Assembly (NCBI GenBank): GCA_947175555.1
Contig: CAMWNK010000006.1
Coordinates: 1-45,124 of the forward strand
DNA length: 45,124 nt
Reading direction: 5' to 3'
Source of the DNA: an uncultured Clostridia bacterium
GTDB lineage: Bacteria > Bacillota > Clostridia > Christensenellales > UBA3700
Made by a program: the position numbers and the translations under genes. Below are positions 23,614 through 39,826 of this stretch, one piece after another. Position 1 is the stretch's first letter. Each line of letters begins with the position of its first letter. Under the pieces are notes generated by a model, which saw only the letters and a list, made by a program, of their open reading frames with translations, was not told the DNA's origin and ran no database searches.

Positions 23614-24261
23614 ATGAACAGGAGAGATATAATAAGCGAGATAGGCAAGTCGGGCGCGGTAGTCGTCGTGCGCGGCGATAGCGTAGAGCAGGGCGTAAAG
23701 ACCGCCGAGGCGTGTTATAAGGGCGGCATTAAGATTATCGAGGTTACTTTCACTCTGCCGCGCGCCGACGAAGTGATAAGGATACTGTCCGATAAATATA
23801 AGGACAGCGATATGATAGTAGGCGCAGGCAGCGTGCTTGACGCGGAGACGGCTCGCGCGGCTATACTTGCGGGCGCGCGTTTTATAGTGTCGCCTGCTTT
23901 TTCCGAGTCTACCGTAAGGCTGTGCAACAGATACGGCATAGCGGTTATCCCCGGAGTATCTACCCCTACCGAGGCGGTGGCGGCTATGGAATTGGGCGTA
24001 GACGTAATCAAGTTATTCCCCGGTGAGATACACAGACCTGCGGGGCTTAAGGCAATCAAGGCGCCTTTTCCCAATCTCAGCGTGATGCCTACGGGCGGAG
24101 TCAACGCCGACAATGCGTCGGAGTGGCTTGCCGCGGGAGCGTACGCGCTCGGCGCAGGCTCGTCTGTTACCAAGGGCGCGGCTAAAGGCGATTATGCTGC
24201 GGTAGAGGCAGATGCCAAATCGTTCATATCTGCTATCAAGCGTTGCAGGGAGAGTAAGTAA
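23614..24261 (+). CDS. eda: 2-dehydro-3-deoxy-phosphogluconate (KDPG) aldolase
   Basis: Class I aldolase cleaving KDPG to pyruvate and glyceraldehyde-3-phosphate; last step of uronate degradation. The 215-aa TIM barrel shows 'GGIKIIEVTFTLPRA' (catalytic Glu near 44), 'VGAGSVLDAETARAA', 'IVSPAF', 'IPGVSTPTEAVAAMELG', the Schiff-base Lys in 'VDVIKLFPGE' (about residue 133) and 'MPTGGVNADNASEWLAAGA'. First gene of the operon; SD AAGAGGTG; its TAA overlaps the kdgK ATG by one base (TAATG), implying coupling. Confidence 0.95.
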   Translation: MNRRDIISEIGKSGAVVVVRGDSVEQGVKTAEACYKGGIKIIEVTFTLPRADEVIRILSDKYKDSDMIVGAGSVLDAETARAAILAGARFIVSPAFSESTVRLCNRYGIAVIPGVSTPTEAVAAMELGVDVIKLFPGEIHRPAGLKAIKAPFPNLSVMPTGGVNADNASEWLAAGAYALGAGSSVTKGAAKGDYAAVEADAKSFISAIKRCRESK

Positions 24262-25283
24262 TGGCTGATGTATTGACATTCGGAGAGATAATGCTGCGTC
24301 TGCAGCCCGTCGGCTATAAGCGCATCATGCAGGCGGAGCAGTACGAGGCAGTATACGGCGGCGGAGAGGCCAACGTTGCGGTATCCCTTGCTCAGATGGG
24401 CGAGGATGTCGCTTTCCTCACGAGGCTGCCTGATAATGCGGTTGCGGATAAGTGTGTCAAGGAATTGCGCGGTTGGGGCGTAGATACGTCTTGTATATTG
24501 CGCGGCGGCAACCGCATGGGCATATATTTTTGCGAGAAGGGCGCAGGTCCCAGAGGCAGTAACGTCATCTACGACAGAGCGGGCTCTTCATTCAGCGAGA
24601 TAGCTGTGTCCGATATGGATTTAAGTGTGCTCGGCGGTTGCAAGTGGCTGCACTTTACGGGTATTACTCCCGCAGTGTCGGATAGCGCGGCAGAGGCTGC
24701 GGAGCATTTGCTCAAGGCGGCTAAAGACAGAGGCGTTACAGTATCTTGCGACCTCAATTACCGCGCTAAGCTGTGGAGCAGAGAGAAGGCTTGCAAGGTA
24801 ATGACTCGTCTGCTCAAATACGTCGACGTGCTCATATCCAACGAGGAGGATTGTAAGGACGTATTCAATCTTTCCGCAGACGGCAGCAATATACTTTCAG
24901 GCGAGCTCAGCGCAGAGGGATATGCCTTGCTTGCGCGCAAGATGCAGGCTAAGTTCCCCAATATATCGCAGGTAGCTTTTACGTTGAGGGAGAGCCTGTC
25001 TGCAAGCGTAAATAATTGGTCGGGTATGCTTGTTGATAAAGACGGCTGCCACGTATCGCGTAAATACACTATTAATATTGTTGACAGAGTAGGCGGCGGC
25101 GACAGCTTCGGCGCGGGACTGATATATGCGCTCAGGCACGGTAGGCGCGGAGAGGAAGCAATATCGTTTGCCGTAGCCGCGTCGGCTATCAAGCATACGA
25201 TAGAGGGAGATTTCAATATCGCAAGCGTTGCCGAAATAGACAAACTCAGCAAAGGAGACGGAAGTGGCAGAGTGCAGAGGTAA
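24261..25283 (+). CDS. kdgK: 2-dehydro-3-deoxygluconokinase
   Basis: PfkB-family kinase that phosphorylates 2-keto-3-deoxygluconate to KDPG. 340 aa. N-terminus 'DVLTFGEIMLRLQPVG' and 'YGGGEANVAVSLAQMGEDVAF' (PfkB signature 1, about residues 36-56) are typical of KdgK; the C-terminal 'DRVGGGDSFGAGLIYAL' (about 275-291) contains the catalytic Asp. 'VSCDLNYRAKLWS' is another KDG-kinase-like stretch. The stop overlaps the uxaC start by 20 nt, so expression is tightly linked. Confidence 0.93.
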   Translation: MADVLTFGEIMLRLQPVGYKRIMQAEQYEAVYGGGEANVAVSLAQMGEDVAFLTRLPDNAVADKCVKELRGWGVDTSCILRGGNRMGIYFCEKGAGPRGSNVIYDRAGSSFSEIAVSDMDLSVLGGCKWLHFTGITPAVSDSAAEAAEHLLKAAKDRGVTVSCDLNYRAKLWSREKACKVMTRLLKYVDVLISNEEDCKDVFNLSADGSNILSGELSAEGYALLARKMQAKFPNISQVAFTLRESLSASVNNWSGMLVDKDGCHVSRKYTINIVDRVGGGDSFGAGLIYALRHGRRGEEAISFAVAASAIKHTIEGDFNIASVAEIDKLSKGDGSGRVQR

Positions 25284-26631
25284 CATTACACCGATACTTA
25301 CGTCCGATAAGGCGCGTCGTCTTTACGACAGCGTCAAGGATTTGCCCATAGTGGATTATCACTGTCATTTATCTCCCAAAGAGATATATGAGGATAAGCC
25401 CTTTAGCAACATCGGAGAGATGTGGCTGGCGGGCGACCATTATAAATGGCGTCTTATGCGTCAAGCCGGCGTAGACGAGAGATATATTACGGGCGACGCC
25501 TGTTATAAAGATAAATTCGTAAAATTCGTCGATGCGGTATCCACAGCGTTCGGCAATCCTATATACGACTGGGCGAGGTTGGAGCTTGAGCGGTTCTTCA
25601 ACGTAGATTTGCCGCTTATACCCGAAAATGCCGATATAATTTGGGATAGGTGCAACGCTTATATCAAGGACAATCGCCTAAGTCCGCGCAGCGTGATAGC
25701 GTCCGCAGGCGTAGAATATATAGCTACTACGGACGATCCTGCCGATACGCTCGAGTATCACAGTCTGCTTGCGCAAGAAGGCTACGGCGTAAAGGTGTGT
25801 CCGTCTTTTAGGACAGATAATATAGTTGCAGTCGATTCACCCGATTATATGACTTATCTCGGCAAGCTCGGCGCTGCCGCAGGAATAAATATACGTTCGC
25901 TCAAAGACTTGGAGAAGGCAATCGATGCAAGGCTTGATTACTTCGTGTCTTTCGGATGCAAGTTCAGCGACGTGGGCGTAGAGGGCTTCCCTTCCGTTAT
26001 CTACGGCGCAGACGACGCGGCGCGCGCTTTCGAGCGTCTTGTCAAAGGAGAGCGACTCGATAGCCTTAATAGCAACGGACTGCGCGGATATCTGTACGTC
26101 ATGCTTGCCAAGGCGTATGCTCGCAGGGGCATAGTAATGCAGTTGCACATTGCAGTTACCCGCAACAGCAACGCGACTATGTTCAAAGTGTGCGGAAGGG
26201 ACAGCGGCTTCGACTGCGTGGGCGATACGATAGACGTATCGAGCATAAGGGCATTGTTCAATGCGGCAGATGCGGACGGAGGATTGCCGCGTACGATAAT
26301 ATACTCGCTCAATCCCACAATGTATTACACTCTTGCGACTTTATGCGGAGCGTTCAGGGGAGTGAGCATGGGTATCAGTTGGTGGTTTAACGACCACAAG
26401 AGGGGCATGTTCGATACGCTCGACTGTATTGCGGAGCTCGGTCATATACTTTCGCTCGTAGGTATGCTTACCGACAGCCGCAGCTTCCTCTCTTACACCC
26501 GCCACGACTATTATAGGCGGATAGTATGCGAATTTTTGAGCGGGGTAACGCCCGACGGAGTTGATAAATACGCGCTTAAGGCGTCATATGCGCTGTGCTA
26601 CGGCAATGCTAAAGCGATAGTGGAGGGATGA
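25264..26631 (+). CDS. uxaC: Glucuronate isomerase
   Basis: Converts D-glucuronate to D-fructuronate (and galacturonate to tagaturonate). The 455 aa fit the amidohydrolase-related UxaC family: '[17 protein letters not shown]' (metal-binding HxH, about residues 29-45), '[14 protein letters not shown]', '[11 protein letters not shown]', and '[15 protein letters not shown]'. The start is a GTG within the end of kdgK, supported by AAAGGAGA a few bases upstream; an alternative ATG start would remove the conserved N-terminus. First committed step of the uronate pathway here. The neighbouring UxuA/UxuB show the glucuronate (mannonate) branch and not the altronate branch. Confidence 0.95.
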
Positions 26632-26635: not shown

Positions 26636-27685
26636 ATGAAGATGACGTTCAGATGGTACGGCAGGGACGATAAAGTAACTCTCGGCGACATCAGACAGAT
26701 ACCTTGCGTCAAGGGCATAGTATCTGCCATATACGACACTCCCGTAGGCGAAGTGTGGAGCAGGGAGAGTATCGCCGCGCTCAAGGCAGATATCAATGCC
26801 GCAGGACTTGAGTTCGAGGTGGTAGAGAGCGTGCCCGTGCATGAGGATATTAAACTGGGCGCAGCAGACGCGCCCCGTCTTATAGAGAATTATAAAGAGA
26901 ACGTAAGGCGTCTCGGCGAGGCGGGCGTCAAATGTATATGCTATAACTTTATGCCCGTATTCGACTGGCTGAGGAGCGAACTGGCTAAAGAGCTTACCGA
27001 CGGCTCGAACGCGCTCGCGTACGACCACGCAACCGTCTTATCCATGAATCCGTTGACAAGCTCCCTCTCTCTCCCCGGGTGGGATTCCAGCTACACCAAG
27101 GGCGGACTTAAGGACTTGCTTGCAAGATACGCGGATATTGACGAAGAAAAGCTGTGGAGCAACCTTACCGTTTTTCTTAAGGAAGTTATTCCCGTTGCAG
27201 AGCAGTCGGGCGTTAAGATGGCTATACACCCCGACGATCCGCCGTGGGGAATATTCGGATTGCCGCGCATAATTACGTGTAAGGAAAATATTGCGCGTAT
27301 GCTTTCCATAGTCGATAGTCCCGCCAACGGCATTACCCTTTGTACGGGCTCTTTGGGAGTAAGTCCCGCCAACGATTTAGTAGATATGGCGCGCACGTTT
27401 AAGGGTAGGATACCTTTCGTGCACTTGCGCAATATTAAGATAACGGGAGATAAGTGCTTTGAGGAAAGCGGACATCGCAGTTGCGACGGCTCGCTCGATA
27501 TGTATGCGATAATCAAGGCGTTGCTCGATACGGGCTTTGACGGATATGTAAGACCTGACCACGGCAGGATGATATGGGGCGAAGTCGGCAGAGCGGGCTA
27601 CGGTCTGTATGACAGAGCGCTCGGCGCAATGTATCTTGACGGAATAGCCGAGGCTGTAGAGAAGGACAGCGCGGCAAGGAGATAG
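26636..27685 (+). CDS. uxuA: D-mannonate dehydratase
   Basis: Removes water from D-mannonate to give 2-keto-3-deoxygluconate. The 349-aa protein starts '[21 protein letters not shown]', the classic UxuA N-terminus, and keeps '[15 protein letters not shown]', '[19 protein letters not shown]' (metal ligands in IHPDDP), 'LCTGSLG', 'FVHLRNI', and '[13 protein letters not shown]'. It is slightly shorter than E. coli UxuA (394) and matches Gram-positive forms. Good SD (GGAGGGATGA), 4 nt after uxaC and 2 nt before uxuB. Confidence 0.96.
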
Positions 27686-27687: not shown

Positions 27688-28509
27688 ATGAAAGATAAAG
27701 TTGTAGTAATTACCGGAGCAGGCGGCGTGCTTTGCAGCGTGATAGCGCAAGCGTACGCGGCTAAAGGAGCTAAGGTTGCGGTATTGGATATCAACGAGGC
27801 TGCGGCGGGCGCAGTGGCTGACAAGATAAACGCAAGCGGCGGCATTGCTAAGGCGTATGCGGTCAACTGCCTCGATAAGAGCGACCTTATCGCGGCGCAC
27901 GCGGCTATAACCGCCGACTTGGGCAAGTGCGATCTACTTGTCAACGGCGCGGGCGGCAACAATCCCAAGGGCACCGCTTCTCACGACTATTACGGCGACG
28001 GCAGCGACCTTGAGGGCGTAAAGACGTTCTTCGACCTTGAGGCGGACGGTATTGATTTTGTCTTCAAACTCAACTTTCTCGCTACGCTGCTCACTACTCA
28101 GGTATTTGCTCCCGACATGATAGGCAGAGAGGGCAATATAATCAATATAAGCTCTATGAACGCATTCAGACCGCTCACGAGGATACCTGCCTACAGCGGT
28201 GCAAAAGCAGCTGTATCCAACTTCACTCAGTGGCTTGCGGTGTATTTTGCCAAGAGCGGCATAAGAGTAAATGCCATCGCACCCGGGTTTTTCGTTACCA
28301 ATCAGAATAAGAGCTTGCTCTTCGATAAGGACGGTAATCCCAGCGAGAGGAGCAAGAAGATACTTGCAGGCACGCCTATGGGCAGATTCGGCGAGGCTGA
28401 GGAGATACTCGGCACATTGTTCTATCTGACCGATAATAAGGCGGCGAGTTTCGTAACAGGCGTAGTGATACCCATTGACGGAGGCTTTTCGGCATATTCG
28501 GGAGTATGA
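27688..28509 (+). CDS. uxuB: D-mannonate oxidoreductase, SDR type
   Basis: Short-chain dehydrogenase, 273 aa, with Rossmann motif 'VVITGAGGVLCSVIAQAYA' (about residues 5-23), 'NGAGGNNPK' and the catalytic Ser and Tyr-x-x-x-Lys in 'NISSMNAF' and 'IPAYSGAKAAVSN' (about 152-177). The 'GAGGNNP' loop and the 'GIRVNAIAPGFFVTNQNK' segment are typical of the Bacillus/Clostridium SDR enzymes (YjmF-like) that interconvert fructuronate and mannonate; E. coli UxuB belongs to a different family. Position directly after uxuA and the otherwise missing fructuronate reductase make this function likely. Confidence 0.88.
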   Translation: MKDKVVVITGAGGVLCSVIAQAYAAKGAKVAVLDINEAAAGAVADKINASGGIAKAYAVNCLDKSDLIAAHAAITADLGKCDLLVNGAGGNNPKGTASHDYYGDGSDLEGVKTFFDLEADGIDFVFKLNFLATLLTTQVFAPDMIGREGNIINISSMNAFRPLTRIPAYSGAKAAVSNFTQWLAVYFAKSGIRVNAIAPGFFVTNQNKSLLFDKDGNPSERSKKILAGTPMGRFGEAEEILGTLFYLTDNKAASFVTGVVIPIDGGFSAYSGV

Positions 28510-28558: not shown

Positions 28559-29842
28559 ATGATTAAAGTTGCTGTGCTCGGCTTAGGCTCGAGAGGGAAA
28601 AATTACGGCGGACATTTAGCTAAGAGCAAGGATGTGCGCATCGTATCCGTTTGCGATAAATTTCAAAGTAAAATAGATAAAGTCAAATCTGCTTGGCAGG
28701 TCCCCGCCGATAAGTGCTTTACGGACGAGGACAGCTTTTTTGCGCAAGGCAAGATAGCCGACCTTATGGTCATCGCCACGCAGGATAGAGACCATTACGC
28801 TCATGCTATCAAGGCGTTGAACCTCGGCTACAATCTCTTGCTCGAGAAGCCTGTTTCGCCCAATATCAATGAGTGTCTCAAGATAGAGCGACTGTCGAGG
28901 GAGAAGGGACTGAAAGTGCTGGTATGCCACGTCTTGCGCTACGCCAACTATTACAGATATGTGCGCTCGCTAATTGAAGAAGGCGTGCTTGGGGATATTA
29001 AGCTGATTAAGCACGACGAGAATATCGCATACTGGCACTTTGCTCACAGCTATGTGCGCGGTAATTGGAGAAGAGAGGACGAGACGTCGCCCATGCTGCT
29101 TGCCAAGTGCTGCCATGACGCCGACCTCTTATATTGGTTTTGCGGCTCTAAGTTTAAGAGCGTATCGAGCATAGGCGGTCTTACGTATTTCAATTCCGAC
29201 AACGCTCCGAAAGGCGCAGCGGATAACTGCTTCGACTGTCCGCATAATAAAAAGTGTATCTACGATTGCCTGTATCAGTATGTCGGTCGCAAGCGCGGTC
29301 CCTTCTACGGCAAGCATAAATTCAAGTGGGGTACATACGCATTCAGCACTTCAAGCAAGAAAAAGGACGTTATCGCTGCGCTCAAGAGCGATCCGAAAGG
29401 CAAGCTGTGGTCGAGATGCGTGTTCAAGTGCGATAACGACGTAGTAGACAATCAAGTAGTGCAGATGGAGACGCTGAGCGGCATTAAGGTGGTAATGACT
29501 GTCAATGCCTTTAACGAGAACGACTACCGTCATACCGAGATACGCGGCAGCAAGGGAGAGCTCGTAGCCGACGACAGGGGCAGCGTTATTAAGCTAAAGC
29601 TGTTCGATAAGAAAGAAAAGAAGATAGTAGTCAATATTATCCCCGTAATCAAAGGGCATTACGGCGGAGACGAGGGGATAATCAAAGCCGCGCTGTCCAT
29701 GCTCAGAGGCGAAGCGCACGGACAGTATACATGGATAAGCGATACAATAGAGAGCCACAGAGTAGTGGCGGCTGCGGAGCTGTCCCGCAAAGAGGGCGGC
29801 AGAAAGGTGGATATGTCGGAGATACCCGATATCGCCGAGTGA
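28559..29842 (+). CDS. Gfo/Idh/MocA-family oxidoreductase with a four-cysteine cluster
   Basis: NAD(P)-dependent sugar oxidoreductase fold, 427 aa. N-terminal 'VAVLGLGSRGKNYGGHL' Rossmann motif, 'LLLEKPVSPN' (catalytic Lys near 98), and 'LLAKCCHDADLLYWFCG' (His/Asp region near 182). A middle insertion near residues 221-237 carries CxxC-x5-CxxxC ('NCFDCPHNKKCIYDC'), possibly a zinc site, found in one subgroup of the family. It lies 49 nt after uxuB without a terminator, so it may be an extension of the uronate operon. Substrate unknown; a keto- or deoxy-uronate or a glycoside oxidised at C3 are possibilities. Confidence 0.82.
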   Translation: MIKVAVLGLGSRGKNYGGHLAKSKDVRIVSVCDKFQSKIDKVKSAWQVPADKCFTDEDSFFAQGKIADLMVIATQDRDHYAHAIKALNLGYNLLLEKPVSPNINECLKIERLSREKGLKVLVCHVLRYANYYRYVRSLIEEGVLGDIKLIKHDENIAYWHFAHSYVRGNWRREDETSPMLLAKCCHDADLLYWFCGSKFKSVSSIGGLTYFNSDNAPKGAADNCFDCPHNKKCIYDCLYQYVGRKRGPFYGKHKFKWGTYAFSTSSKKKDVIAALKSDPKGKLWSRCVFKCDNDVVDNQVVQMETLSGIKVVMTVNAFNENDYRHTEIRGSKGELVADDRGSVIKLKLFDKKEKKIVVNIIPVIKGHYGGDEGIIKAALSMLRGEAHGQYTWISDTIESHRVVAAAELSRKEGGRKVDMSEIPDIAE

Positions 29843-29846: not shown

Positions 29847-30290
29847 ATGTTGATAGCTAAACGGAAGATACATCTGACTTGGGAGGACAATTACAGGCAC
29901 ATACCCGTAAAGATATCGGTGCCTGCGGGGCTGAAAAAACTGGTTTTGAGCCTCAGATATTCGCCCAAGTATGAGGAGAGTCCGCAACGTTGCGCAAGAA
30001 TGATTAAGCAATGTATATCTGCGCAGACGGGAAGAGAGCCTACCGATGATGAGATAAGCAGGCATATTCCTCTTGCCAATCATCTTTCGTTCAGCGTGGA
30101 TGCGCCTTGCGGTTGGCTCGGTACGTCGCATAGGCACGACTATAAGCAGGATATAGAGATAGGCGAGAAGTCAAGCGCAGGCTTCGTCGATTTCGTTCCG
30201 TGTCGCGGAAGTTACATACTTACCGTCAGCGTCAATGCAATCGTTACGCCTTGTCTCGACTTGGATATTACGGCGGAGGGGATATTGTGA
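29847..30290 (+). CDS. Small beta-rich protein of unknown function, coupled to a PHP metallohydrolase
   Basis: 147 aa, no signal peptide, no recognised enzymatic motif. 'HIPVKISVPAGLKKLVLSLRYSPK' near the start and the alternating strands at the end resemble the N-terminal beta domain of CehA/McbA-type PHP metallohydrolases, which normally sits directly before the PHP domain in one chain. Here the stop overlaps the start of the PHP gene by 4 nt (GTGA). That makes a split version of the two-domain protein plausible. A less likely alternative is a small accessory subunit like those of two-subunit glycoside-cleaving lyases. The start ATG lies 5 nt after the preceding stop with only a weak SD, so translation probably depends on coupling. 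Confidence 0.6.
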   Translation: MLIAKRKIHLTWEDNYRHIPVKISVPAGLKKLVLSLRYSPKYEESPQRCARMIKQCISAQTGREPTDDEISRHIPLANHLSFSVDAPCGWLGTSHRHDYKQDIEIGEKSSAGFVDFVPCRGSYILTVSVNAIVTPCLDLDITAEGIL

Positions 30291-31240
30291 AGTGGTATAA
30301 GTGCGAGCTTCATTGCCATACCGTCCACAGCGACGGCAGCATGAGTGCGGATACGCTCGTAGATCGCGCGGCGCGCAGGGGATATACGGCGATAGCCCTT
30401 ACAGACCACAATACCGTATCCGGCTTAGACTCTTTTGTCGCTGCGGCAAGCAAGGCGGGCATAGTACCCATAAGGGGTATAGAGTGGACGACGTTTTACG
30501 GTCATATCACCGTGCTCGGCGTAAACGACGTCAACTGGCGCGAGGTAAGCGTAGCCGCGTTCGACGACTGCGTACAGAGGGCGGCAGAGCAGGGCGCGGC
30601 GGTAAATATAGCTCATCCCGACAGATGGGGATTCCCCGTAGGCGCGGGCTGCCACTTTGAATACGCTGTCGGTAATTGGAGCAATGTCGCAGGTATGGAA
30701 GTGTATTGGGGATTGCGCCCGCACGTAAGCGAGCACTGCGCCCGAGCGCTTGCAAGGTGGCGAGGACTTATATGCGGCGGAGAGAAGATATCAGCGCTAT
30801 ACGGTTACGACTGGCATAAGATTGACGATGACGTATCCGTATACGGAGCAACGTATCTGGGGATAGACGGCGCGCCGAGCGAGGCGTCGTGCATAGCCGC
30901 GGTAAGAGAGGGCAGGACGTTTGTCTCGCTAATCGGCAATGCTGATATACGTTTTATTTCGGGCGGAGTAGAGTATGCTATAGGCGACAGCGTGCCAGTA
31001 GGCGCGGAGGGGATTGTCAAGATAAAACTTGACGGGCGTAATATCGGTGATAATCTTACGCTTAACGTATTCGATTTCGCAAGCGGCGATACTATCTCTT
31101 GCGATATAGTAGGCAATAAGGCGGAGATAGGTTATATTGCAAGCAATACTTTCGGAATAACCGTTTCGGGCAGCGCGGACGGCTGCGCGGGAGACGTGAT
31201 TATAAGCAGTCCGATTTATGTTGAGGGAGGTAAAGTATGA
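30287..31240 (+). CDS. PHP-domain metallohydrolase (CehA/McbA-like)
   Basis: The start is set at the GTG at 30287, overlapping the previous stop (GTGA), with GGAGGGG 7 nt upstream; this gives 317 aa beginning 'MKWYKCELHCHTVHSDG'. The longer track ORF would run far into the upstream gene. PHP metal-binding motifs: HxH ('ELHCHTVHSDG', residues 7-17), 'IALTDHNTVSGL' (about 45-56), 'GIEWTT', 'NIAHPDRWGFP' and 'GYDWHKID'. The last 90 residues are beta-rich. PHP proteins hydrolyse phosphoesters or related bonds; CehA/McbA homologues act on diverse esters. A phosphodiester or phospho-sugar substrate is inferred from its neighbours, a GDPD-like gene overlapping by 4 nt among them. Confidence 0.83.
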   Translation: MKWYKCELHCHTVHSDGSMSADTLVDRAARRGYTAIALTDHNTVSGLDSFVAAASKAGIVPIRGIEWTTFYGHITVLGVNDVNWREVSVAAFDDCVQRAAEQGAAVNIAHPDRWGFPVGAGCHFEYAVGNWSNVAGMEVYWGLRPHVSEHCARALARWRGLICGGEKISALYGYDWHKIDDDVSVYGATYLGIDGAPSEASCIAAVREGRTFVSLIGNADIRFISGGVEYAIGDSVPVGAEGIVKIKLDGRNIGDNLTLNVFDFASGDTISCDIVGNKAEIGYIASNTFGITVSGSADGCAGDVIISSPIYVEGGKV

Positions 31241-31884
31241 TAACGGCACACGGCGGAGCATTGGGCACGGGCAGAAATTCGCGGTTATATTTTGCCAGTG
31301 CGGATAATTTTATGTGCGATGCGCTTGAGGTGGACGTACGTCGCAGAGGCGAATATCTGTTTTTGAGCCACGGACCGAGTATATTCGGCTCTTACGGAAA
31401 GTTGCCTTTGACTTACGCCTTTGAGGTGGTTAAGGATAAGAATTTGATGATCAACTGCGATTTGAAGAATTCCAATTTAGCTGCAAGAGTGGAGGCGCTT
31501 GCCCTCAAGTCGGGCGCCGAGGATAGGATAATTTATACAGGCTCTATCAACGAGCGCGAGGCGATGGGGCTTACCTACGGCAGAGCGTTCTTTAATCAGC
31601 TTGACAATCTGCCTTATAGGGCGGGTAACGCCGCCGCTATCAAGCGCAGGCTGGAGAGCTATAACAATCCCGTGTTTGCGGGTATCAACGTCAATAAGCT
31701 GCTTGTAGACGACAGCTTTTTGGAAGAGTGCGTATACGAGGGCGTCAAGGTATCTTTATTTACCGTCAACAGCAGGCGCGAGGCGGAGAGATACAGCGAG
31801 ATGAACTTGTATAATATCACCACGAATATTCCCGATACCGTCCGCTCGCTTATAAGTACGGTAGGATTTTCGGGAGCGATTTAG
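31237..31884 (+). CDS. Divergent glycerophosphodiester phosphodiesterase-like protein
   Basis: 215-aa TIM barrel of the GDPD/UgpQ type. The usual HRG motif is 'AHGG' (Arg missing), the usual 'ENT' is 'GRNS', the ExD pair is kept ('CDALEVDVRRRGEY'), the His of the HD motif is kept without the Asp ('FLSHGPS'), and the later ElK motif reads 'INCDLK'. The protein is shorter than UgpQ (about 247). Activity is therefore likely but with altered specificity. It overlaps the PHP gene by 4 nt (ATGA) and ends the unit; a terminator follows. Family members release alcohols from glycerophosphodiesters; here a glycerophospho-inositol-type substrate is conceivable, but this is inference. Confidence 0.72.
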   Translation: MITAHGGALGTGRNSRLYFASADNFMCDALEVDVRRRGEYLFLSHGPSIFGSYGKLPLTYAFEVVKDKNLMINCDLKNSNLAARVEALALKSGAEDRIIYTGSINEREAMGLTYGRAFFNQLDNLPYRAGNAAAIKRRLESYNNPVFAGINVNKLLVDDSFLEECVYEGVKVSLFTVNSRREAERYSEMNLYNITTNIPDTVRSLISTVGFSGAI

Positions 31885-31894
31885 CGCGCAATAT

Positions 31895-31922: not shown

Positions 31923-31932
31923 ATGATAAAAT
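31904..31932 (+). promoter_or_regulatory. Promoter for the Gfo/Idh-TIM barrel-GH-symporter operon
   Basis: TTGATA, a 17-nt spacer and TAAAAT; each hexamer differs from consensus at one position. It lies on top of the preceding terminator and 58 nt before the first gene of the next unit. Confidence 0.55.
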
Positions 31933-31989
31933 CTATATATCCCCTCGCAATCGTCAAGTAGAGGGAGTATAACTTTAAGGCAGGGCAAT

Positions 31990-33159
31990 ATGGTCGGATT
32001 TGCCGTCATAGGCGTAGGCAGAATGGGCAGCAGGCACGCGGACAATCTCGCTAAAGGCAGAGTGCGCGGAGCAAGGCTTGTCGCGCTCTGCGATATCGAC
32101 GCAGCCGTGCGCGATAAGTATAGTAGCAGGTATAAGGGCGTCAAGATATTTTCCGATTACCGAGAGCTGATCTCATCGGGTATAGCCGATGCCGTAGTCA
32201 TTGCTACGCCGCATTATATGCACGTAGAGATAGCTTCCGCCACAATAGCCGCGGGTATTCACACGCTTGTGGAAAAGCCCGTATCGGTAACGTGCAAGGA
32301 CGCTCTTGCGCTCAATAAAACGGCGGCAGAGCACCCCGACACGGTATTCGGGATAATGTACAATCAGCGTACCAACGCAATCTATCGCAAGATTAAGTCG
32401 CTTGTAGGCAGCGGCGCGATAGGCAAGGTGCGACGCGCGGAGCTTACGATAACAGATTGGTACAGGACGCAATATTATTACGACCTCGGCGGTTGGCGCG
32501 CATCGTATGACGGAGAGGGCGGCGGCACGCTCATCAATCAGTGCGTGCATCAGCTGGATATATTGCAATGGGTATTGGGTATGCCTGAATCTCTTATTGC
32601 TGATTGCCGCACCGTGGGCAGGGATATTTCTACCGAGAACGAGGTATGCGCTACGCTGACTTATCCCGATTTCAACTGCATGCTGTTCATGTCCGCGCAT
32701 GAGTTCCCCGGGGTGAACAGACTGGAGATTGCGGGCGATAAGGGACGTATTACGGCAAGTAAATTCGGCGCGGAAGTCGTGATAAATAAGCTGGACGAGA
32801 AGGATATCAATCTCAAGTCCAAGCGCGACTACGGCAATCCCGCCGACAAGAAATATAAGAAATATAAGATACGTTACGGACTTTTCAATCTTATACGCGA
32901 CGGACTGTACGGTCAGCAGATAAATATCTTGCGCGACTTTGCTCGGCGCGTTGGGGGAGATAAGACTTCGCTTATTGCAGAGGGCGCGGAGGGCATAAAT
33001 GCGCTTGCGCTCATCAATGCGGTGTATCTGTCGTCTTGGACGGGCGAGCGCGTAGCGGTGCCTGTCGATGTGGATAAATATGCGTCCGCTCTGGACAATA
33101 AGCGAGCTTATGAGAGAGCAAAATCGACTAATAGCGCGTCAAGCGCCAACTTAAAGTAG
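31990..33159 (+). CDS. Gfo/Idh/MocA-family oxidoreductase (paralogue 1)
   Basis: 389 aa. Rossmann motif 'FAVIGVGRMGSRHADNL', 'TLVEKPVSVT' (catalytic Lys near 97) and 'GEGGGTLINQCVHQLDILQW' (catalytic His/Asp near 180). It closely resembles the gene at 34118 ('YNQRTN', 'WYRTQYYYDLGGWR', 'NRLEIAGDKG' have direct counterparts), so the two look like an ancient duplication flanking the TIM-barrel gene. This clade is common in Clostridia next to sugar-isomerase-like genes and glycosidases; related enzymes oxidise a sugar hydroxyl, often at C3, to prepare a glycosidic bond for cleavage. The exact substrate is unknown. The C-terminal 25 residues are a low-complexity Ser/Ala/Lys tail. Confidence 0.86.
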   Translation: MVGFAVIGVGRMGSRHADNLAKGRVRGARLVALCDIDAAVRDKYSSRYKGVKIFSDYRELISSGIADAVVIATPHYMHVEIASATIAAGIHTLVEKPVSVTCKDALALNKTAAEHPDTVFGIMYNQRTNAIYRKIKSLVGSGAIGKVRRAELTITDWYRTQYYYDLGGWRASYDGEGGGTLINQCVHQLDILQWVLGMPESLIADCRTVGRDISTENEVCATLTYPDFNCMLFMSAHEFPGVNRLEIAGDKGRITASKFGAEVVINKLDEKDINLKSKRDYGNPADKKYKKYKIRYGLFNLIRDGLYGQQINILRDFARRVGGDKTSLIAEGAEGINALALINAVYLSSWTGERVAVPVDVDKYASALDNKRAYERAKSTNSASSANLK

Positions 33160-33176
33160 GAATAACAGGAGGGATT

Positions 33177-34112
33177 ATGGTTAAGATATCCGGATTTTAC
33201 GACGAAGTAACTTCCGACTTCGAAGAGCAATGCAAGACGGTAAAGGCATTGGGCGAGACGTACATGTGTCCGAGAGTGGTCAACGGCAAGAATATTGCAA
33301 ACTACAGTGCAGAAGAGTTTGCAGCTAATATCAAGCCTATCATGGATAAGTACGGCGTAAAGTTTTCCTCTATCGGCTCGCCTATCGGAAAGATCGGTCT
33401 GTATGACGACGAGGCGTACAAGGCTCAGCTTGCCAAGTTGGAGCAGCTTGTTAAGATATGCGTGCTCACCGATTGCAAGTACATAAGGATTTTCTCTTTC
33501 CGTACGGGAGGGAGCGATTACGATAAGTATTTTCCCACGGTAGTGGAGAAGCTCAAGGGATACCTTGAAAAAGTAAAAGGCACCGATATAGTGCTTTTGC
33601 ACGAGAACGAGAAGCGTATATACGGCGACTCTCCCGACAGATGTATTCAGCTTTATAAGGCGATAGATAATCCTCAGTTTAAGCTGTGTTACGATGCGTC
33701 CAATTACATCCAGTGCGGTTACAATCCCAACGAGTGCTATGATAAAGTTAAGGAATATTGCGTGTATTATCACATCAAGGATTGCTCGGAGTACGGCGTC
33801 GAGGTGCCCGTCGGTATGGGTAAGGCGGACTATGTAGCAATACTCAAGGACTTAGTGGTAGAGAGAGGTTACGACGGATTTATGACGCTGGAACCTCACA
33901 CGGGTAAGTACGCCGACCATAAGATACTCTTCCAGTGCCTGTGCTGGATTACGTGGGCTATCCCCTATATCGGCAAGTGGCACAGGGTATTCAGGCGTAT
34001 AGATAAGGCTAAAGGCATTAGCAGATGGCGCGGCGTAGATAGGTCCACGATATTCAGATGGCAGTACGAGGGACTCAAGTCGTTGCTTAAACAAGCAGGA
34101 GCGGAGGTATAA
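33177..34112 (+). CDS. Sugar isomerase/epimerase-like TIM-barrel protein
   Basis: AP-endonuclease-2/xylose-isomerase-like TIM barrel, 311 aa, with metal-site residues in 'IVLLHENEKRIYGDS' (Glu), 'KLCYDASNYIQCG' (Asp), 'YYHIKDCS' (His) and 'GFMTLEPHTG' (Glu). No signal peptide. In described systems, proteins of this fold encoded next to Gfo/Idh/MocA oxidoreductases include isomerases, epimerases and lyases that break C- or O-glycosides after C3 oxidation. It sits between two paralogous oxidoreductase genes, with 17 and 5 nt spacing. SD AGGAGGG. The last 45 residues (basic, Trp-rich) extend beyond the usual barrel. Substrate unknown. Confidence 0.82.
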   Translation: MVKISGFYDEVTSDFEEQCKTVKALGETYMCPRVVNGKNIANYSAEEFAANIKPIMDKYGVKFSSIGSPIGKIGLYDDEAYKAQLAKLEQLVKICVLTDCKYIRIFSFRTGGSDYDKYFPTVVEKLKGYLEKVKGTDIVLLHENEKRIYGDSPDRCIQLYKAIDNPQFKLCYDASNYIQCGYNPNECYDKVKEYCVYYHIKDCSEYGVEVPVGMGKADYVAILKDLVVERGYDGFMTLEPHTGKYADHKILFQCLCWITWAIPYIGKWHRVFRRIDKAKGISRWRGVDRSTIFRWQYEGLKSLLKQAGAEV

Positions 34113-34117
34113 GCAGT

Positions 34118-35296
34118 ATGAATAAGGTAAGATACGGAATAGTAGGTATAGGCAAGCAGGGCTATGGCTATGCTAAGAAATTGTATGCAGGCAAGGACAG
34201 TAACGCCGTGCTCGCGGCTGTATGCGATAAGGATAAAGCCAGACGGGACAAGGCCGCTGCCGAGCTCGCGGGAGTAAAGATATACGAAAATTACAAGGAT
34301 ATGCTCGATAAGAACGTAATCGACGCGGTAATAATCGACACTCCCCACTACCTGCATCCCACTATAGGCGTAGAGGCTATGGAGAGAGGATTGCACGTGC
34401 TTTCGGATAAGCCCATAGGCGTATATACCAAGGCTGTGCGTGAGCTCAACGAATGCGCGGACAGACATCCCGAGCTCAAGTTCGGAGTGCTATACAATCA
34501 GCGCACCAACAGCATGTACCGCAAGGCGCGCGACATCGTTGCGGGCGGCGAGCTGGGCGAGCTGAAGCGCATTGTGTGGATAATTACCAACTGGTACCGT
34601 CCTCAGGCATACTACGATCAGGGCGGATGGCGCGGCACTTGGGGCGGCGAAGGCGGCGGAGTGCTCATCAATCAGGACCCTCATCAGCTTGACTTGTTCA
34701 CTTGGATAGCGGGCAGAAAAATCAAAAAGGTCTGGAGCACCGCAAGGACTGTAGGCAGAGATATTAACGTCGAGAACGACGTCAGTGCGTTTTGCGAGTT
34801 CGAGGGCGGCGCAACGGGCGTATTCATCACGTCTACTCACGAGTCTCCCGGAACTAACAGACTGGAGATTACGGGCGACGGCGGTCAGATAGTCATCACC
34901 AACTCATTGCTTACAAAACTTGTCTATAAAAAGAACAAGACTATGGAGCCCGAGTACTCCGCTATCAGCGCAGAGGAGAGAAAGAAGGGCGCAGTCAAAG
35001 ATTGGACTATGCAGAAGATAGGCACCAAGACCTATAAGTACTCGCAAAAGTTAAGCGAGGTAATAGGAGGTCAGCACATCAAGGTAATACGCAACTTCTC
35101 CGAGGTGGTGCTGGGTAAGAGCAATGAGCTCATAGCCCGCGGACAGGACGGTATAATAGGTCTCGGCTTTTCCAACGCGATACATCTTTCAGGATGGACA
35201 GGCGAGGTCGTGGACTTCCCTATAGACGAAGAGAAGTATCTCAGCGAGCTCAATAAGAGAATTGAGGAGGAAAAGACCTCCGGTGTCAAGAGGTAA
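34118..35296 (+). CDS. Gfo/Idh/MocA-family oxidoreductase (paralogue 2)
   Basis: 392 aa, paralogue of the gene at 31990. Rossmann motif 'YGIVGIGKQGYGYAKKL', 'VLSDKPIGVY' (the Lys of the EKP motif is kept, with Asp for Glu), and 'GEGGGVLINQDPHQLDLFTW' containing the conserved Asp-Pro-His. 'TGVFITSTHESPGTNRLEIT' is typical of the clade. The two paralogues differ at the active-site loop (NQDPHQ here, NQCVHQ in the other), so they probably act on different positions or partners, perhaps oxidising and re-reducing the same sugar. Follows the TIM-barrel gene by 5 nt; GGAGG SD. Confidence 0.86.
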   Translation: MNKVRYGIVGIGKQGYGYAKKLYAGKDSNAVLAAVCDKDKARRDKAAAELAGVKIYENYKDMLDKNVIDAVIIDTPHYLHPTIGVEAMERGLHVLSDKPIGVYTKAVRELNECADRHPELKFGVLYNQRTNSMYRKARDIVAGGELGELKRIVWIITNWYRPQAYYDQGGWRGTWGGEGGGVLINQDPHQLDLFTWIAGRKIKKVWSTARTVGRDINVENDVSAFCEFEGGATGVFITSTHESPGTNRLEITGDGGQIVITNSLLTKLVYKKNKTMEPEYSAISAEERKKGAVKDWTMQKIGTKTYKYSQKLSEVIGGQHIKVIRNFSEVVLGKSNELIARGQDGIIGLGFSNAIHLSGWTGEVVDFPIDEEKYLSELNKRIEEEKTSGVKR

Positions 35297-35301
35297 TAGA
35301 T

Positions 35302-37224
35302 ATGCAAGTCGGGTATAAGGACGGAGCTATCGTAGCGCAGGGCAAGTTGCACGAAAAGGCGGAGTACGACGTCAGCAACAACCGTATTACAGCTCAGTTC
35401 GACGGCAGGGGAGCTATCTCCAAGTATGCCGTAATGAACAAGTATTCCGTATTCAGTAATTTTTACGCTATCATGACCGTTGACGGCAAGCCGCTCGATT
35501 ATATGTGCGACAAGCGCGTCGTAATGCTCGGCAAGAAGCAAATCACATATATCGATAAGGGCGGCGTAAATATCGTCGTTACGCAGTTCCTCGACACGGA
35601 CAATAACTGCATTTACGTTGAGTATGCCGTAGACAGCGATAGGGATACGGACTTCAAGTGCGTAGTCAACTTCGGCATCAACTATGAGTCTTATGTTACG
35701 CAGCTGCCTACCAACAGACTTTCGATAGGCAATCTTGCAAAGATAATAGGCGGACTTATTAAGAAAAAGAAGGTAAAATGCGAGACTCGCGGCGACGTGA
35801 AGAATTATCACAGCGACGTAATGGGCGATTTTTATCTCGACGTAGCGATAGGACAAGGCGGAGAGATAGGCGAGTGCGAGAGAGGCTTTTTCAATCAGTT
35901 TTCTTTAGGCGGAAAGGTGTCTGAGGGCAAGCGCGCGACGTTCCGCTACGTAATAAGCGCGGGTACTAAGGGCGACTTTACTTACTGCGATACGCTCAAG
36001 GCGTTTTATAATTTCGATAAGGCGCTCGTATCGGCGGATAAGTATGCCGCTTCGCTCAAGTGCCCCGTCAAGCTCGAGGGCGAATTCCTCAACGCATACT
36101 ATAAGTCGCTTCTCAACTGTTCGCTCTCCAACTACAAAGAGCTGGGCAAGTTCAAGGGCTTTTTAGCAGGTATAGTGTATCAATTCCCCGCCCGTACATA
36201 TTACAGAGACGCGTATTGGACTGTGCTATCGGTATTGCCTGTGCGTCCCGACTTGGTGCGCAACGAGATAGTTACTCTTGCGCGCGGAATAGACGGCAAG
36301 GGCGAGTGTCCTTCCGCAGTCAAGTTCAACTTTAAGAATTATTGGGGTAATCACTATGATTCTCCCTCTTTCTATGTTATAATGCTGTACGACTACGTAG
36401 CGCATACGGGCGATAGGTCCGTGCTTGATGTCAAGTGCGCAGGCGGTACGTGTCTGAGCGCAGCGCATAAGGTCATGCGCCGTCTGCTCAAGGAAGTGGA
36501 TTCTACGGGACTGCTCGTAAAGGGCGGCAAGTACAACAGGCGCGACTGGTGCGATAATGTCTTCCGCGGCGGATACGTTACTTACGACGAGGCTTTGTAT
36601 GCGCGCGCGCTGTTCGCGATGAGCGAGCTGTACCGCATTAAAGAAGACAAGAGCCTTTCTCAAGAATATAAGGATAGATATCTCAAGGTTAAGGATGCTA
36701 TCAATACCATGCTTTGGGATGAAGAGAAGGGCTGGTACGTCAACTATAAGGACGGCGACTTTATCGAGGACAATCTTTCAATCGATACTGTTGTGTGCGT
36801 ACTTTACGATATAGCGGACGGCGAGAGGGCAAGGCGTATGCTGTCGGCAATGGAGAGACTGCTCGAGTCTAAGAACAATACCAAGCAGGGCGCGGGAGAT
36901 TGGGGCACATTATGCGTGTATCCCTTCTATAAGAATGCTGAGCATATCGTGCAGAAGTCGTCTTTGCCTTATTATTACCACAACGGCGGAGATTGGCCGT
37001 ATCTCTCGTGTATGTATGCCTATGCCAAGCTGATGTACGGCATGGACTACTCTTATCCGCTTACAAGGTGGTTTGAGTATAACATAGAGCAGGGCAATTA
37101 TACGCCCATAGAGTTTTTCTCGCCCGTGCATCCCAAGGGCTCGCTGCTTCAGGCGTGGAGCTCTACAGGCGCGTTTGTACTCAGTTATCCGGACGGAGAC
37201 TTTTTCCGTAAGACGATCGTGTGA
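35302..37224 (+). CDS. Six-hairpin glycosidase-like protein, family not assigned
   Basis: 640 aa, no signal peptide, so cytoplasmic. The N-terminal 250 residues are beta-sandwich-like; the rest looks like an (alpha/alpha)6 barrel as in amylo-alpha-1,6-glucosidase, GH63 or related clan members. Suggestive stretches: 'YYRDAYWTVLSVLPV' (about residue 300), 'WGNHYDSPSFYVIMLYDYV', 'NRRDWCDNVFRGGYVTYDEAL' (about 413-433), 'GAGDWGTLCVYPF', and 'YYHNGGDWPYLSCMYAYAKL' (about 558-577). Candidate acid/base residues include the Asp/Glu in these stretches. The fold is inferred from pattern, not from an exact family match. It may hydrolyse a short imported glycoside, perhaps after or instead of oxidation by the neighbouring enzymes. 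Start ATG with AAGAGGTAA, 5 nt after paralogue 2. Confidence 0.7.
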   Translation: MQVGYKDGAIVAQGKLHEKAEYDVSNNRITAQFDGRGAISKYAVMNKYSVFSNFYAIMTVDGKPLDYMCDKRVVMLGKKQITYIDKGGVNIVVTQFLDTDNNCIYVEYAVDSDRDTDFKCVVNFGINYESYVTQLPTNRLSIGNLAKIIGGLIKKKKVKCETRGDVKNYHSDVMGDFYLDVAIGQGGEIGECERGFFNQFSLGGKVSEGKRATFRYVISAGTKGDFTYCDTLKAFYNFDKALVSADKYAASLKCPVKLEGEFLNAYYKSLLNCSLSNYKELGKFKGFLAGIVYQFPARTYYRDAYWTVLSVLPVRPDLVRNEIVTLARGIDGKGECPSAVKFNFKNYWGNHYDSPSFYVIMLYDYVAHTGDRSVLDVKCAGGTCLSAAHKVMRRLLKEVDSTGLLVKGGKYNRRDWCDNVFRGGYVTYDEALYARALFAMSELYRIKEDKSLSQEYKDRYLKVKDAINTMLWDEEKGWYVNYKDGDFIEDNLSIDTVVCVLYDIADGERARRMLSAMERLLESKNNTKQGAGDWGTLCVYPFYKNAEHIVQKSSLPYYYHNGGDWPYLSCMYAYAKLMYGMDYSYPLTRWFEYNIEQGNYTPIEFFSPVHPKGSLLQAWSSTGAFVLSYPDGDFFRKTIV

Positions 37225-37251
37225 TCGCATATATGATAGGAGGTAAATTAG

Positions 37252-38796
37252 GTGGAAAATACTTTGGAAGAGCCTAAGGCTATCGTCCCCGAAGAAGATA
37301 GCGCGGAGGGCGCGGACGAGGAACTCATTAACCGTAAGTATCTTACTGTTAAGGATTACATATTCTTCTCCATGGCGCAGTTCGCAAGTTCGGCTATTAC
37401 GGGACTTGTTCAGGGCTATCTGCTATTCTACTATACGGTGTGTGTGGGTATCGCGCCTACTGCGGTGGGTACGATGTTCCTCGTATCCAAGATATTCGAC
37501 GCGCTCAACGATCCATTGATGGGCGCAATAGTCGATAGGACGCGTACACGCTGGGGTAAGATGAGACCTTATCTCATATTCGGCTCCGTGCCGTGGGGCG
37601 TGCTTGCAATCGCGCTGTTTATACCCGTTACGGGCTTTAGCTCAGGCGGTAAGATAGCATATATGTACATCACGTATCTTGCGTATACGGTCATGGGTAC
37701 GCTCGTAGGCGTCCCTATGGGCGGCTTGCCCGCGGTGGCATCTCCCAACATGCACGAGCGTTCCAAGTTGATATCTATATCGCGTACGGTAGGCTCGGTA
37801 GGAGAGCAGAGCGCGCTGGTGCTGATATCGCTGGGCTTGCTGTTCAGTCAGAATTATACAGCCGTATATCTTATCGTCGCAATAGTCATCGGCGTGCTCG
37901 GTACGCTTTTCCAGATACTGGGAGGTATCTCTATAAAGGAGCGACTCGAGCCGACTATAGAAAAGCCGCATTTCTTAGACGGCTTTAAGTACATGTTTAA
38001 GAATAAGCAGTTTTTCCTGCTGATTTTATCCAACCTGCTCACATTCTTCCGCAACCTCGTATCGGCGGCAATCATATACGTAGTCAACTACATATTCAAT
38101 AACGGTTCGTTGCAGATATGGTTCTCGCTCCCGGGCGCAATCGCCTCTATGATAGGTATGTTGCTTGCGCCTCAGCTAAAGAAGAAGATGGACTCCAAGA
38201 AGTTATTCATACTCGCTACGATATGGCACTCCGTTGCGCTTGCGCTCGTATTTATGGTATACATGGTAGGCGGCACGCAGTGGTATACGATAGCTGCGAT
38301 AATGTTTATAGCCATGATGCCCGTGGGTATTCTCAACGTCGTCCCGCACCTTATGGCCACGGATACAATAGACTATTGGGAAGAAAAGACGGGCAACCGT
38401 TGCGAGGGTATTACCTTCGCACTTATGTCGCTGCGTAGCAAGGTCTCCAGCGCGTTTAAGGATTACTTCCTTGCTTGGTTGCTTGCATTCTTTATGTTCT
38501 CGCAACCGCTCAGCTTCCTCTCGGGGCATAAGCCGGTACAGTCGGAGTTCACTAAGTCGGGATTGTTCCTTATGTATACGCTCATTCCCGCAGTGCTCAA
38601 TCTCATATCTATAGTGCCCATGCTGTTCTATAAGCTGTCGGGTAAGAAGATGGTCGAGATACAGAGCAAACTTGCTCAGCGTAGAGAGCAGGAGAAGGCA
38701 GAGCTTGACGGAACGGTGGACGGCGGTACAATCGCCGCGGTTTCGGATGCCGTTGCCGCAGGCACGTTGCATATAGACGGGGAGGACATGGAGTAA
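37252..38796 (+). CDS. GPH-family glycoside/hexuronide:cation symporter
   Basis: Twelve-helix major facilitator of the glycoside-pentoside-hexuronide:cation symporter family. The hallmark of loop 2-3 is clear: 'KIFDALNDPLMGAIVDRTRTRWGKMRPYL' region (about residues 83-111), as in MelB, UidB and XylP. 514 aa is longer than usual because of acidic N-terminal (about 30 aa) and C-terminal (about 50 aa) extensions; no EIIA-like domain is present. It is the only sugar importer in the inositol/uronate region, so it may carry an intact glycoside. Start is a GTG with AGGAGGT 8 nt upstream; its stop overlaps the next ATG by one base (TAATG). Confidence 0.9.
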   Translation: MENTLEEPKAIVPEEDSAEGADEELINRKYLTVKDYIFFSMAQFASSAITGLVQGYLLFYYTVCVGIAPTAVGTMFLVSKIFDALNDPLMGAIVDRTRTRWGKMRPYLIFGSVPWGVLAIALFIPVTGFSSGGKIAYMYITYLAYTVMGTLVGVPMGGLPAVASPNMHERSKLISISRTVGSVGEQSALVLISLGLLFSQNYTAVYLIVAIVIGVLGTLFQILGGISIKERLEPTIEKPHFLDGFKYMFKNKQFFLLILSNLLTFFRNLVSAAIIYVVNYIFNNGSLQIWFSLPGAIASMIGMLLAPQLKKKMDSKKLFILATIWHSVALALVFMVYMVGGTQWYTIAAIMFIAMMPVGILNVVPHLMATDTIDYWEEKTGNRCEGITFALMSLRSKVSSAFKDYFLAWLLAFFMFSQPLSFLSGHKPVQSEFTKSGLFLMYTLIPAVLNLISIVPMLFYKLSGKKMVEIQSKLAQRREQEKAELDGTVDGGTIAAVSDAVAAGTLHIDGEDME

Positions 38797-39767
38797 TGAA
38801 GAAGAAGTTATCGCTTATATTGATAGCCGTCGCGCTTATTCTCTCCGTAGTGGGCATAGCAGCTTGCAGCGGCTCGGAACAGGCCTTTTATGACGGATTG
38901 ATTAAGGACGCTCGCAAGGCGGAAGAGGGACTTTCCAAGATGTATACCGCCATGGCAGAGCGTAGCTATTATTCCGATTTTGACGTAATATACACGTATC
39001 ACGACAACGTATCGCGCGGTACTCCCGACAAGGAAGGATGGGTGAACAGCGATATTACCGATTGGTACGTGCAGATAGCGCAGGTACGTATTATCGTCAG
39101 TCTCGGCGAGGACGGAGCTGTGAGTTATTACAGCAAAGTTACTATATTCAATGAGATGACGGATGGACACTATGACGACGTCAAGGGCAAGAGGGATTTC
39201 GTAAAGGCGCTCGAGGGCGAGATATGGATGGATTCTCAAGGAGTATATAGTGTATATTACGATGCCGAAGGCAATAAGACGGCGCGTGTCGACCTGCCCA
39301 ATGTATACGTCGGCGAGTACGATATAGACGCTCTGCTTACACTTTGGCCTGCAATGACGCAGAGATATTCCGACTTAGAGGACGACCTCGGAGACATTAC
39401 GCAGGCTACTTACGGATTTAAGCTGTACTGCAATCTCTGTCAGCTGGGATTGAGATACGTATATGACCTCGACGGCAACATGGTAGACAGCTGGCACAGC
39501 GATGAGGTAAGCAGCGGATACGGCGACGACCTCTCTTATGACTGGAACAAGGTCAGCGGACTTGACAACGTAAGGCTGTCGGTTACCTCGGACACAGCTC
39601 ACGTTATCGATAAGTTCGAGCTTTTTACCGAGCGCGTACTTGCTTACTATCAGGCTAAGAACGAGGTGGACAAGACCTTGGTACTCAAAGCCGATGTATG
39701 GGCTAAGACTCAGATCACCGTCGATATTAAGACTAAGGACGTGCCCGCTATACCCGATAAGGCATAA
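38796..39767 (+). CDS. Predicted lipoprotein of unknown function, coupled to the symporter
   Basis: 323 aa with a lipoprotein signal: 'MKKKLSLILIAVALILSVVGIAACSGS' (lipobox IAAC, Cys near 24). The rest is acidic with Tyr/Trp-rich, beta-type segments ('WYVQIAQVRIIVSLGEDGAV', 'GVYSVYYDAEGNKTARVDL'). No binding-protein or enzyme motif recognised. It overlaps the GPH symporter by one base and ends the operon. The other lipoprotein (10644) has a similar position at the end of a sugar-catabolic unit, but I see no convincing sequence similarity. It may be a surface glycoside-binding or sensing protein; this is inference. Confidence 0.72.
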   Translation: MKKKLSLILIAVALILSVVGIAACSGSEQAFYDGLIKDARKAEEGLSKMYTAMAERSYYSDFDVIYTYHDNVSRGTPDKEGWVNSDITDWYVQIAQVRIIVSLGEDGAVSYYSKVTIFNEMTDGHYDDVKGKRDFVKALEGEIWMDSQGVYSVYYDAEGNKTARVDLPNVYVGEYDIDALLTLWPAMTQRYSDLEDDLGDITQATYGFKLYCNLCQLGLRYVYDLDGNMVDSWHSDEVSSGYGDDLSYDWNKVSGLDNVRLSVTSDTAHVIDKFELFTERVLAYYQAKNEVDKTLVLKADVWAKTQITVDIKTKDVPAIPDKA

Positions 39768-39793: not shown

Positions 39794-39826
39794 CGGCGCG
39801 CTCCAACTTACGGGCGCGCTGTTTTT
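39794..39826 (+). terminator. Terminator of the symporter operon
   Basis: CGGCGCGC / GCGCGCTG (one G-U pair, extendable inward by a U-G and C-G pair) followed by TTTTT. It lies 27 nt after the lipoprotein stop. Confidence 0.82.

Follow-up and report, generated by a model that had tools for sequence, protein, structure and literature searches.

A cassette that combines two Gfo/Idh/MocA oxidoreductases (DH1 and DH2), a TIM barrel (TIM1), a glycosidase-like protein, a symporter and a putative lipoprotein raises the question of which glycoside it handles and which of its enzymes breaks the glycosidic bond. The cassette occupies positions 31990-39767 of a 45,124-nt stretch (the window; contig CAMWNK010000006.1, assembly GCA_947175555.1) from an uncultured Clostridia bacterium of the family UBA3700. 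Our proposal, made with about as much confidence as doubt, is that, within a locus for glucuronide use, it is the half responsible for uptake and deglycosylation and operates through C3-keto chemistry. This chemistry is known elsewhere; the present version is one without the usual eliminase and with an unusual glycosidase-like protein. A preliminary description of the window had envisaged oxidation of an imported glycoside, cleavage or epimerisation by the barrel and re-reduction of the product, and had named cyclitol epimerisation as an alternative. Oxidative glucuronide use is likely, the cyclitol reading is rejected, and there is more than one candidate for the cleaving enzyme.

Probable oxidation of a glucuronide and the link to glucuronate catabolism

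The best solved relative of both DH1 and DH2 is PDB 8tdi, deposited as "P2B11 glucuronide-3-dehydrogenase" (3.5e-106 for DH2 and 2e-77 for DH1). DH2 is 46% identical to 8tdi and keeps the KP and HQ motifs. In a tree of 68 proteins, DH2 and 8tdi fall into one supported clade with DH1 as a sister paralogue, while DH3, a dehydrogenase of other loci, and Gfo0, a third Gfo/Idh protein of the window, each form separate clades. This placement led us to reject Gfo0 as a candidate for the absent DH3 reductase. By homology, DH2 would be the Gfo/Idh C3-dehydrogenase of an oxidative glycoside cleavage pathway, and the first step with the best support is oxidation of a glucuronide at C3, in agreement with the earlier suggestion that a Gfo/Idh enzyme oxidises the imported glycoside.

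The gene content of the cassette was as previously described. All six open reading frames were recovered with gaps of exactly 17, 5, 5 and 27 nt and a 1-nt overlap, and Pfam assigns the products to Gfo/Idh/MocA (twice), AP_endonuc_2, the (alpha/alpha)6 glycosidase superfamily and the MFS_2/GPH symporters. The loops NQCVHQ of DH1 and NQDPHQ of DH2 recur in each of the 18 family genomes fetched, which represent four genera and include the window's own.

The six genes had been described as a unit under one promoter. Their order is indeed kept in all 18 genomes, but they continue an array that spans 23614-39767 and make up its downstream half; the glucuronate-catabolism genes upstream had gone unnoticed. 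The family order is [2-keto-3-deoxy-6-phosphogluconate (KDPG) aldolase]-2-keto-3-deoxygluconate (KDG) kinase-UxaC-UxuA-short-chain dehydrogenase/reductase (SDR)-Gfo0-(PHP-domain protein)-(glycerophosphodiesterase (GDPD)-like protein)-DH1-TIM1-DH2-glycosidase-like protein-GPH symporter-lipoprotein. It recurs in 18/18 fetched genomes, although the first array genes lie outside the fetched stretch in several of these loci and the GDPD-like and lipoprotein genes went undetected in a few. Since the order is kept throughout, the cassette is not a chance assembly. TIM1 and the glycosidase-like protein are each found in 41/46 family genomes. Uptake and catabolism are thus linked in one conserved array, which carries the GPH symporter together with UxaC, UxuA, KDG kinase and KDPG aldolase. 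After TIGR00792, the next models matched by the symporter are YagG and the glucuronide transporter, both below cut-off.

The link to glucuronate extends to other lineages. UxuA is encoded in 27/37 TIM1 genomes. In 9 of these 27 (other Clostridia) no more than ~10 kb separates it from TIM1/DH2, a proximity with a chance probability of 2e-11 as roughly estimated from genome size and copy number. The closest 8tdi relative found (66%) belongs to a locus, L041, that also carries TIM1, DH3, a second TIM barrel (TIM2), UxuA/B and UxaC.

The analysis shows gene content and order, conservation, homology and catalytic-residue patterns; from these we infer the reactions, their substrates, which roles fall to DH1 and DH2 and which protein carries out the elimination, as follows. 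The GPH symporter would import a small glucuronide, and DH2 would oxidise its C3 hydroxyl with NAD+. Beta-elimination would free the aglycone, either spontaneously, for good leaving groups, or through TIM1 in a second capacity. DH1, or DH2 in reverse, would reduce 3-keto-glucuronate to D-glucuronate, which would make the module redox-neutral, and UxaC, the SDR, UxuA, KDG kinase and KDPG aldolase would convert D-glucuronate to pyruvate and triose phosphate. The glycosidase-like protein would act as an auxiliary inverting hydrolase on a second linkage of the same imported compound.

TIM1 and the elimination step

TIM1 homologues occur in 59/196 sampled genomes of the class. The metal-site pattern Glu-Asp-His-Glu (E143, D173, H199 and E239) is invariant in 44 members, the HENE motif is invariant in the family, and R33, K72, R104, H142, E145, K146 and H241 are further invariant or near-invariant polar residues. 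In profile alignments, E143 lies opposite the corresponding Glu of Art22, AsbF and IolI, which in AsbF and IolI we take to be a metal ligand. AsbF, a dehydratase, is the second-best PDB profile match of TIM1, and the barrel also aligns with the isomerases and epimerases Art22, IolI and tagatose 3-epimerase.

TIM2 differs from TIM1 at the decisive position. TIM2 has an invariant YHNH motif together with D, H and E. With its profile, AtOGE (8bvk) is found at 7.5e-45, followed by the barrels 8tcd, 8tcs and 8tct. AtOGE binds its metal through His132, Asp163, His189 and Glu233, and its catalytic His134 is essential by mutation (PMC10628242). When the TIM1 and TIM2 profiles were compared, H142 fell opposite the first metal His and the invariant N144 opposite the catalytic His. 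TIM1 therefore fails the sequence test for an OGE-type eliminase, because Asn144 (H-E-N) replaces the catalytic His of HxH. The earlier idea that the barrel cleaves the glycoside is not established, as its family lacks this His and often stands beside a separate OGE-type eliminase that is missing from this genome. The more likely roles for TIM1 are those of a hydratase, which may be bifunctional, or of an epimerase of keto sugars, and we regard it as a candidate 2-hydroxy-3-keto-glycal hydratase or 3-keto-sugar epimerase. The hydratase role is suggested because the eliminase type is excluded, with LgdB2 as a bifunctional precedent. The Glu-Asp-His-Glu site would be compatible with a YcjR-type 3-keto-glycoside 4-epimerase, the type that takes part in guloside-glucoside interconversion by ycjQRS.

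Among 38 loci outside the family, several of them contig-truncated, 23 have TIM1 and DH2 on the same strand and no more than 3 kb apart; TIM2 is found near TIM1 in 16, DH3 in 15 and glucuronate genes in 9. One clostridial locus (L080:7638-12385) has two TIM1 copies around UxuA, TIM2, DH2 and a UxuB-type SDR.

Several observations weigh against the proposed pathway. The function of 8tdi is the one named by its depositors, and a text search for this molecule name gave no match. DH1 falls outside the clade of DH3, the putative reductase of other loci, and is instead paralogous to the oxidising enzyme; the earlier suggestion that the second of the two dehydrogenases acts as the reductase is likewise not established. 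The TIM1 profile had no match at E<0.01 to AtOGE, AtHYD (8ro4), YcjR (6wn6) or the 8tc* structures. Three genomes with TIM1-DH2 (G006, G101 and G159) lack UxuA, and the core pair therefore probably serves more than uronides. Neither an OGE-type TIM2 (best 37 bits, at the IolE locus) nor a DUF1080 eliminase (PF06439) was found in the window's genome, which at ~94% completeness in 102 contigs does not make absence of a gene proof. One step of the pathway is thus left without a clear owner. Since this defining eliminase, an OGE-type HxH TIM barrel or DUF1080, was tested for and not found, we do not count the locus as a full member of the oxidative pathways. The bond would be broken in one of three ways: by TIM1 as an additional eliminase, by spontaneous loss of the leaving group once C3 is oxidised, or by the glycosidase-like protein.

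Two other AP_endonuc_2 proteins of the genome were rejected as TIM2, one being endonuclease-IV-like and the other a 247-aa contig-end barrel without the YHNH motif. Most family genomes tested likewise lack TIM2. Strong TIM2 genes are present only in G321 and G330, ~80 kb from the cassette (G321:C1:165486-166238 and G330:C2:164341-165093), possibly as a recent gain or an unlinked remnant. TIM1-DH2 without TIM2 is also seen in near-complete genomes of other lineages (G006, G101, G193, G149 and G159).

Structure prediction had been recommended as a check. TIM1 was modelled with moderate confidence from five input sequences (predicted local distance difference test score, pLDDT, 65.5), and a fold search with this model returned generic barrel matches only, with AtHYD 8ro4 at rank 22 among many barrels and YcjR at rank 28. 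The glycosidase-like model (pLDDT 54.0, also five input sequences) was too poor for a fold search.

The comparison with known systems places the cassette close to, but not within, several of them. The study behind 8tdi reportedly concerns a gut glycan pathway of oxidation, elimination, hydration and reduction. The window resembles P2B11/8tdi in having DH2 in the 8tdi clade, and 8tdi relatives occur with TIM1, DH3, TIM2 and glucuronate genes (L041) or with DH3, TIM2 and glucuronate genes (L111). Unlike such loci, the window lacks an OGE-type eliminase and DH3 and has DH1 and the glycosidase-like protein instead. The levoglucosan pathway LgdA-LgdB1-LgdB2-LgdC likewise uses two Gfo/Idh enzymes and sugar-isomerase-like TIM barrels for oxidation, elimination, hydration and reduction, and its LgdB2 is a hydratase barrel with weak eliminase activity (PMC7676230); it has two barrels where the cassette has one, and acts on another substrate. 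AtOGE and AtHYD of Agrobacterium (PMC10628242) are also TIM barrels acting on 3-keto-glycosides, but TIM1 has no HxH motif and, as noted above, no profile match to either. DgpA-DgpB/DgpC C-glycoside cleavage similarly combines Gfo/Idh C3 oxidation with a TIM barrel (PMC8563793). This model, invoked in the preliminary description, is a poor fit, as no DgpB-type gene stands between DH1, TIM1 and DH2, where gaps of 5 and 17 nt leave no room for such a small subunit, and TIM1 has no match to a solved C-glycoside eliminase at E<0.01.

The glycosidase-like protein and alternative routes

The glycosidase-like protein gave weak matches to the GH94, GDE_C, trehalase and rhamnosidase models and could not be placed in a numbered glycoside hydrolase (GH) family in this analysis. 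The RxDWxDN motif that contains D415 corresponds in alignment to the DW-D motif of chitobiose phosphorylase. E604 (TPxE) lies near the C-terminus, and both residues are invariant in 24 homologues, one of them at 38% identity. These residues are the putative general acid and base, and with the fold superfamily they point to an (alpha/alpha)6 inverting glycoside hydrolase, so that the protein may simply hydrolyse its substrate with inversion. As no signal peptide is evident, it should act on a compound imported by the symporter. The only homologue found outside the family (L083:9307-11163, 38% identity) follows a GH31-like gene, judged by eye, with a GH38-like gene nearby, called by similarity to the window gene 12342-15320, and without dehydrogenases. 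From this context, members of the family apparently can work as glycosidases on their own.

A glycosidase in this setting had been regarded as unexplained by known systems. It is less so now, since in E. coli ycjQRST two sugar dehydrogenases and a TIM-barrel isomerase share one cluster with glycoside phosphorylases of the (alpha/alpha)6 kind (PMC11543891). The cassette differs from ycjQRST in its GPH instead of ATP-binding cassette (ABC) uptake and in its linked glucuronate pathway. One ycjQRST dehydrogenase is a zinc alcohol dehydrogenase, again unlike the cassette.

One possible alternative is a ycjQRST-like redox epimerisation followed by hydrolysis. DH1 and DH2 would oxidise and re-reduce C3, TIM1 would epimerise a neighbouring carbon, and the glycosidase-like protein would hydrolyse the resulting glucuronide; the starting compound would be an unusual uronoside. 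We consider this scheme rather unlikely. TIM1 does align with Art22, IolI and tagatose 3-epimerase and shares the Glu-Asp-His-Glu pattern, not the OGE pattern; the glycosidase-like protein keeps its acid/base pair and is conserved with TIM1 as tightly as the dehydrogenases (41/46 each); the same class of gene set exists in E. coli (PMC11543891); and a minimal set of two dehydrogenases and TIM1 without TIM2 exists in other lineages. However, TIM1 is accompanied by an OGE-type eliminase in 16/38 other loci, which an epimerase would not need, YcjR gave no profile match and its fold rank of 28 came from a moderate-confidence model, and no uronoside in need of epimerising is evident.

Alternatively, TIM1 could be a full beta-eliminase and hydratase for C3-oxidised glucuronides that dispenses with the OGE histidine, the glycosidase-like protein being unrelated to the bond. 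This is also unlikely in our view. The position of the AtOGE catalytic His, essential by mutation (PMC10628242), aligns with the invariant Asn144, and many relatives keep a separate eliminase beside TIM1. In its favour are the bifunctional LgdB2 (PMC7676230), the further conserved polar residues of TIM1 (R33 to H241, listed above) and the occurrence of TIM1-DH2 without TIM2 in the five near-complete genomes named above and in most tested family genomes.

A hybrid route, which we judge distinctly improbable, would join C3 oxidation by DH1-TIM1-DH2 to the (alpha/alpha)6 glycosidase on the same bond or sugar. The glycosidase-like protein would then replace the lost OGE eliminase and cleave a C3-oxidised or re-epimerised glucuronide; if true, redox and hydrolytic cleavage of glycosides would be combined in a new way.

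A role in the epimerisation or breakdown of cyclitols (inositol) is very improbable: inositol pathways typically contain Gfo/Idh proteins and IolI-like barrels, and there is an iol cluster upstream, but IolC, IolD, IolE and IolG over curated cut-offs already form that separate cluster, DH1 and DH2 score 105 and 100 bits against an IolG cut-off of 355, TIM1 has no IolE match, and the cassette travels with glucuronate genes, from which an opposite-strand AraC regulator separates the iol genes.

Neighbouring features and possible glucuronide use in the family

The features of the array are listed in Table 1.

Table 1 Genes and terminator of the array at 23614-39767 and its downstream end
Feature	Coordinates	Strand	Basis and remarks
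KDPG/KHG aldolase	23614..24261	+	PRK06552 over cut-off
KDG-type sugar kinase	24261..25283	+	scores under curated cut-offs
UxaC glucuronate isomerase	25264..26631	+	PRK02925 479 bits vs cut-off 387
UxuA mannonate dehydratase	26636..27685	+	TIGR00695 419.5 bits vs cut-off 199.55
SDR, probable fructuronate/mannonate oxidoreductase (UxuB role)	27688..28509	+	PF00106; role suggested by position
Gfo0, third Gfo/Idh of the array	28559..29842	+	own clade, apart from DH1/DH2/DH3
PHP-domain CehA/McbA-type metallohydrolase	30200..31240	+	NF038032 172 bits
GDPD-like protein	31237..31884	+	GDPD resemblance by eye only; conserved position
DH1, Gfo/Idh/MocA oxidoreductase	31990..33159	+	NQCVHQ loop; Pfam PF01408/PF22725
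TIM1, AP_endonuc_2 TIM barrel	33177..34112	+	PF01261
DH2, Gfo/Idh/MocA	34118..35296	+	NQDPHQ loop
Glycosidase-like (alpha/alpha)6 protein	35302..37224	+	GH94 32.7 bits, GDE_C 32.4 bits, both over Pfam cut-off
GPH-family glycoside/hexuronide:cation symporter	37252..38796	+	TIGR00792 278.5 bits vs cut-off 231.35
Putative lipoprotein	38796..39767	+	lipobox VGIAAC
Intrinsic terminator	39794..39821	+	z -3.4; closes the cassette

A single promoter upstream of DH1, as earlier proposed, is plausible: a consensus match of 10/12 lies at 31904-31932, but matches of this kind number 40 in the region where 23 would be expected. A hairpin at 31880-31926 was rejected as a terminator, being no stabler than shuffled sequences (z 0.51). 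The putative lipoprotein had no Pfam or NCBIfam family match. It changes fast, with ~30% identity among relatives against 58-75% for its operon neighbours, and holds its position in 17/18 family loci. No Pfam or NCBIfam match was found for the GDPD-like protein. The PHP metallohydrolase is in the array of most family genomes and was not seen in several (e.g. L112-L114 and L116).

Upstream, a compact inositol cluster (12342-22574) encodes a GH38-like protein, IolC, an IolB-like protein, IolD, IolE, an MMSDH/IolA-type dehydrogenase and IolG, accompanied by a class II aldolase at 9789. Between this cluster and the glucuronate array, the minus strand encodes an AraC-type regulator (22690-23445).

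In the gut, beta-glucuronidases are usually given the credit for freeing drugs, hormones and phenols of glucuronic acid. None of the four GH2 proteins of the window's genome scored over the beta-glucuronidase model cut-off. Near relatives with names are metagenome genomes, some from chicken gut judging by their names, and relatives of this family carry the recorded names Candidatus Caccalectryoclostridium and, in the case of one from chicken, Alloclostridium. TIM1 represents a widespread TIM-barrel family with no assigned function that adjoins relatives of a glucuronide-3-dehydrogenase. Together, our results suggest that this family of gut Clostridia may use glucuronides without a recognisable beta-glucuronidase. 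Such use would escape both standard gene surveys and beta-glucuronidase inhibitors.

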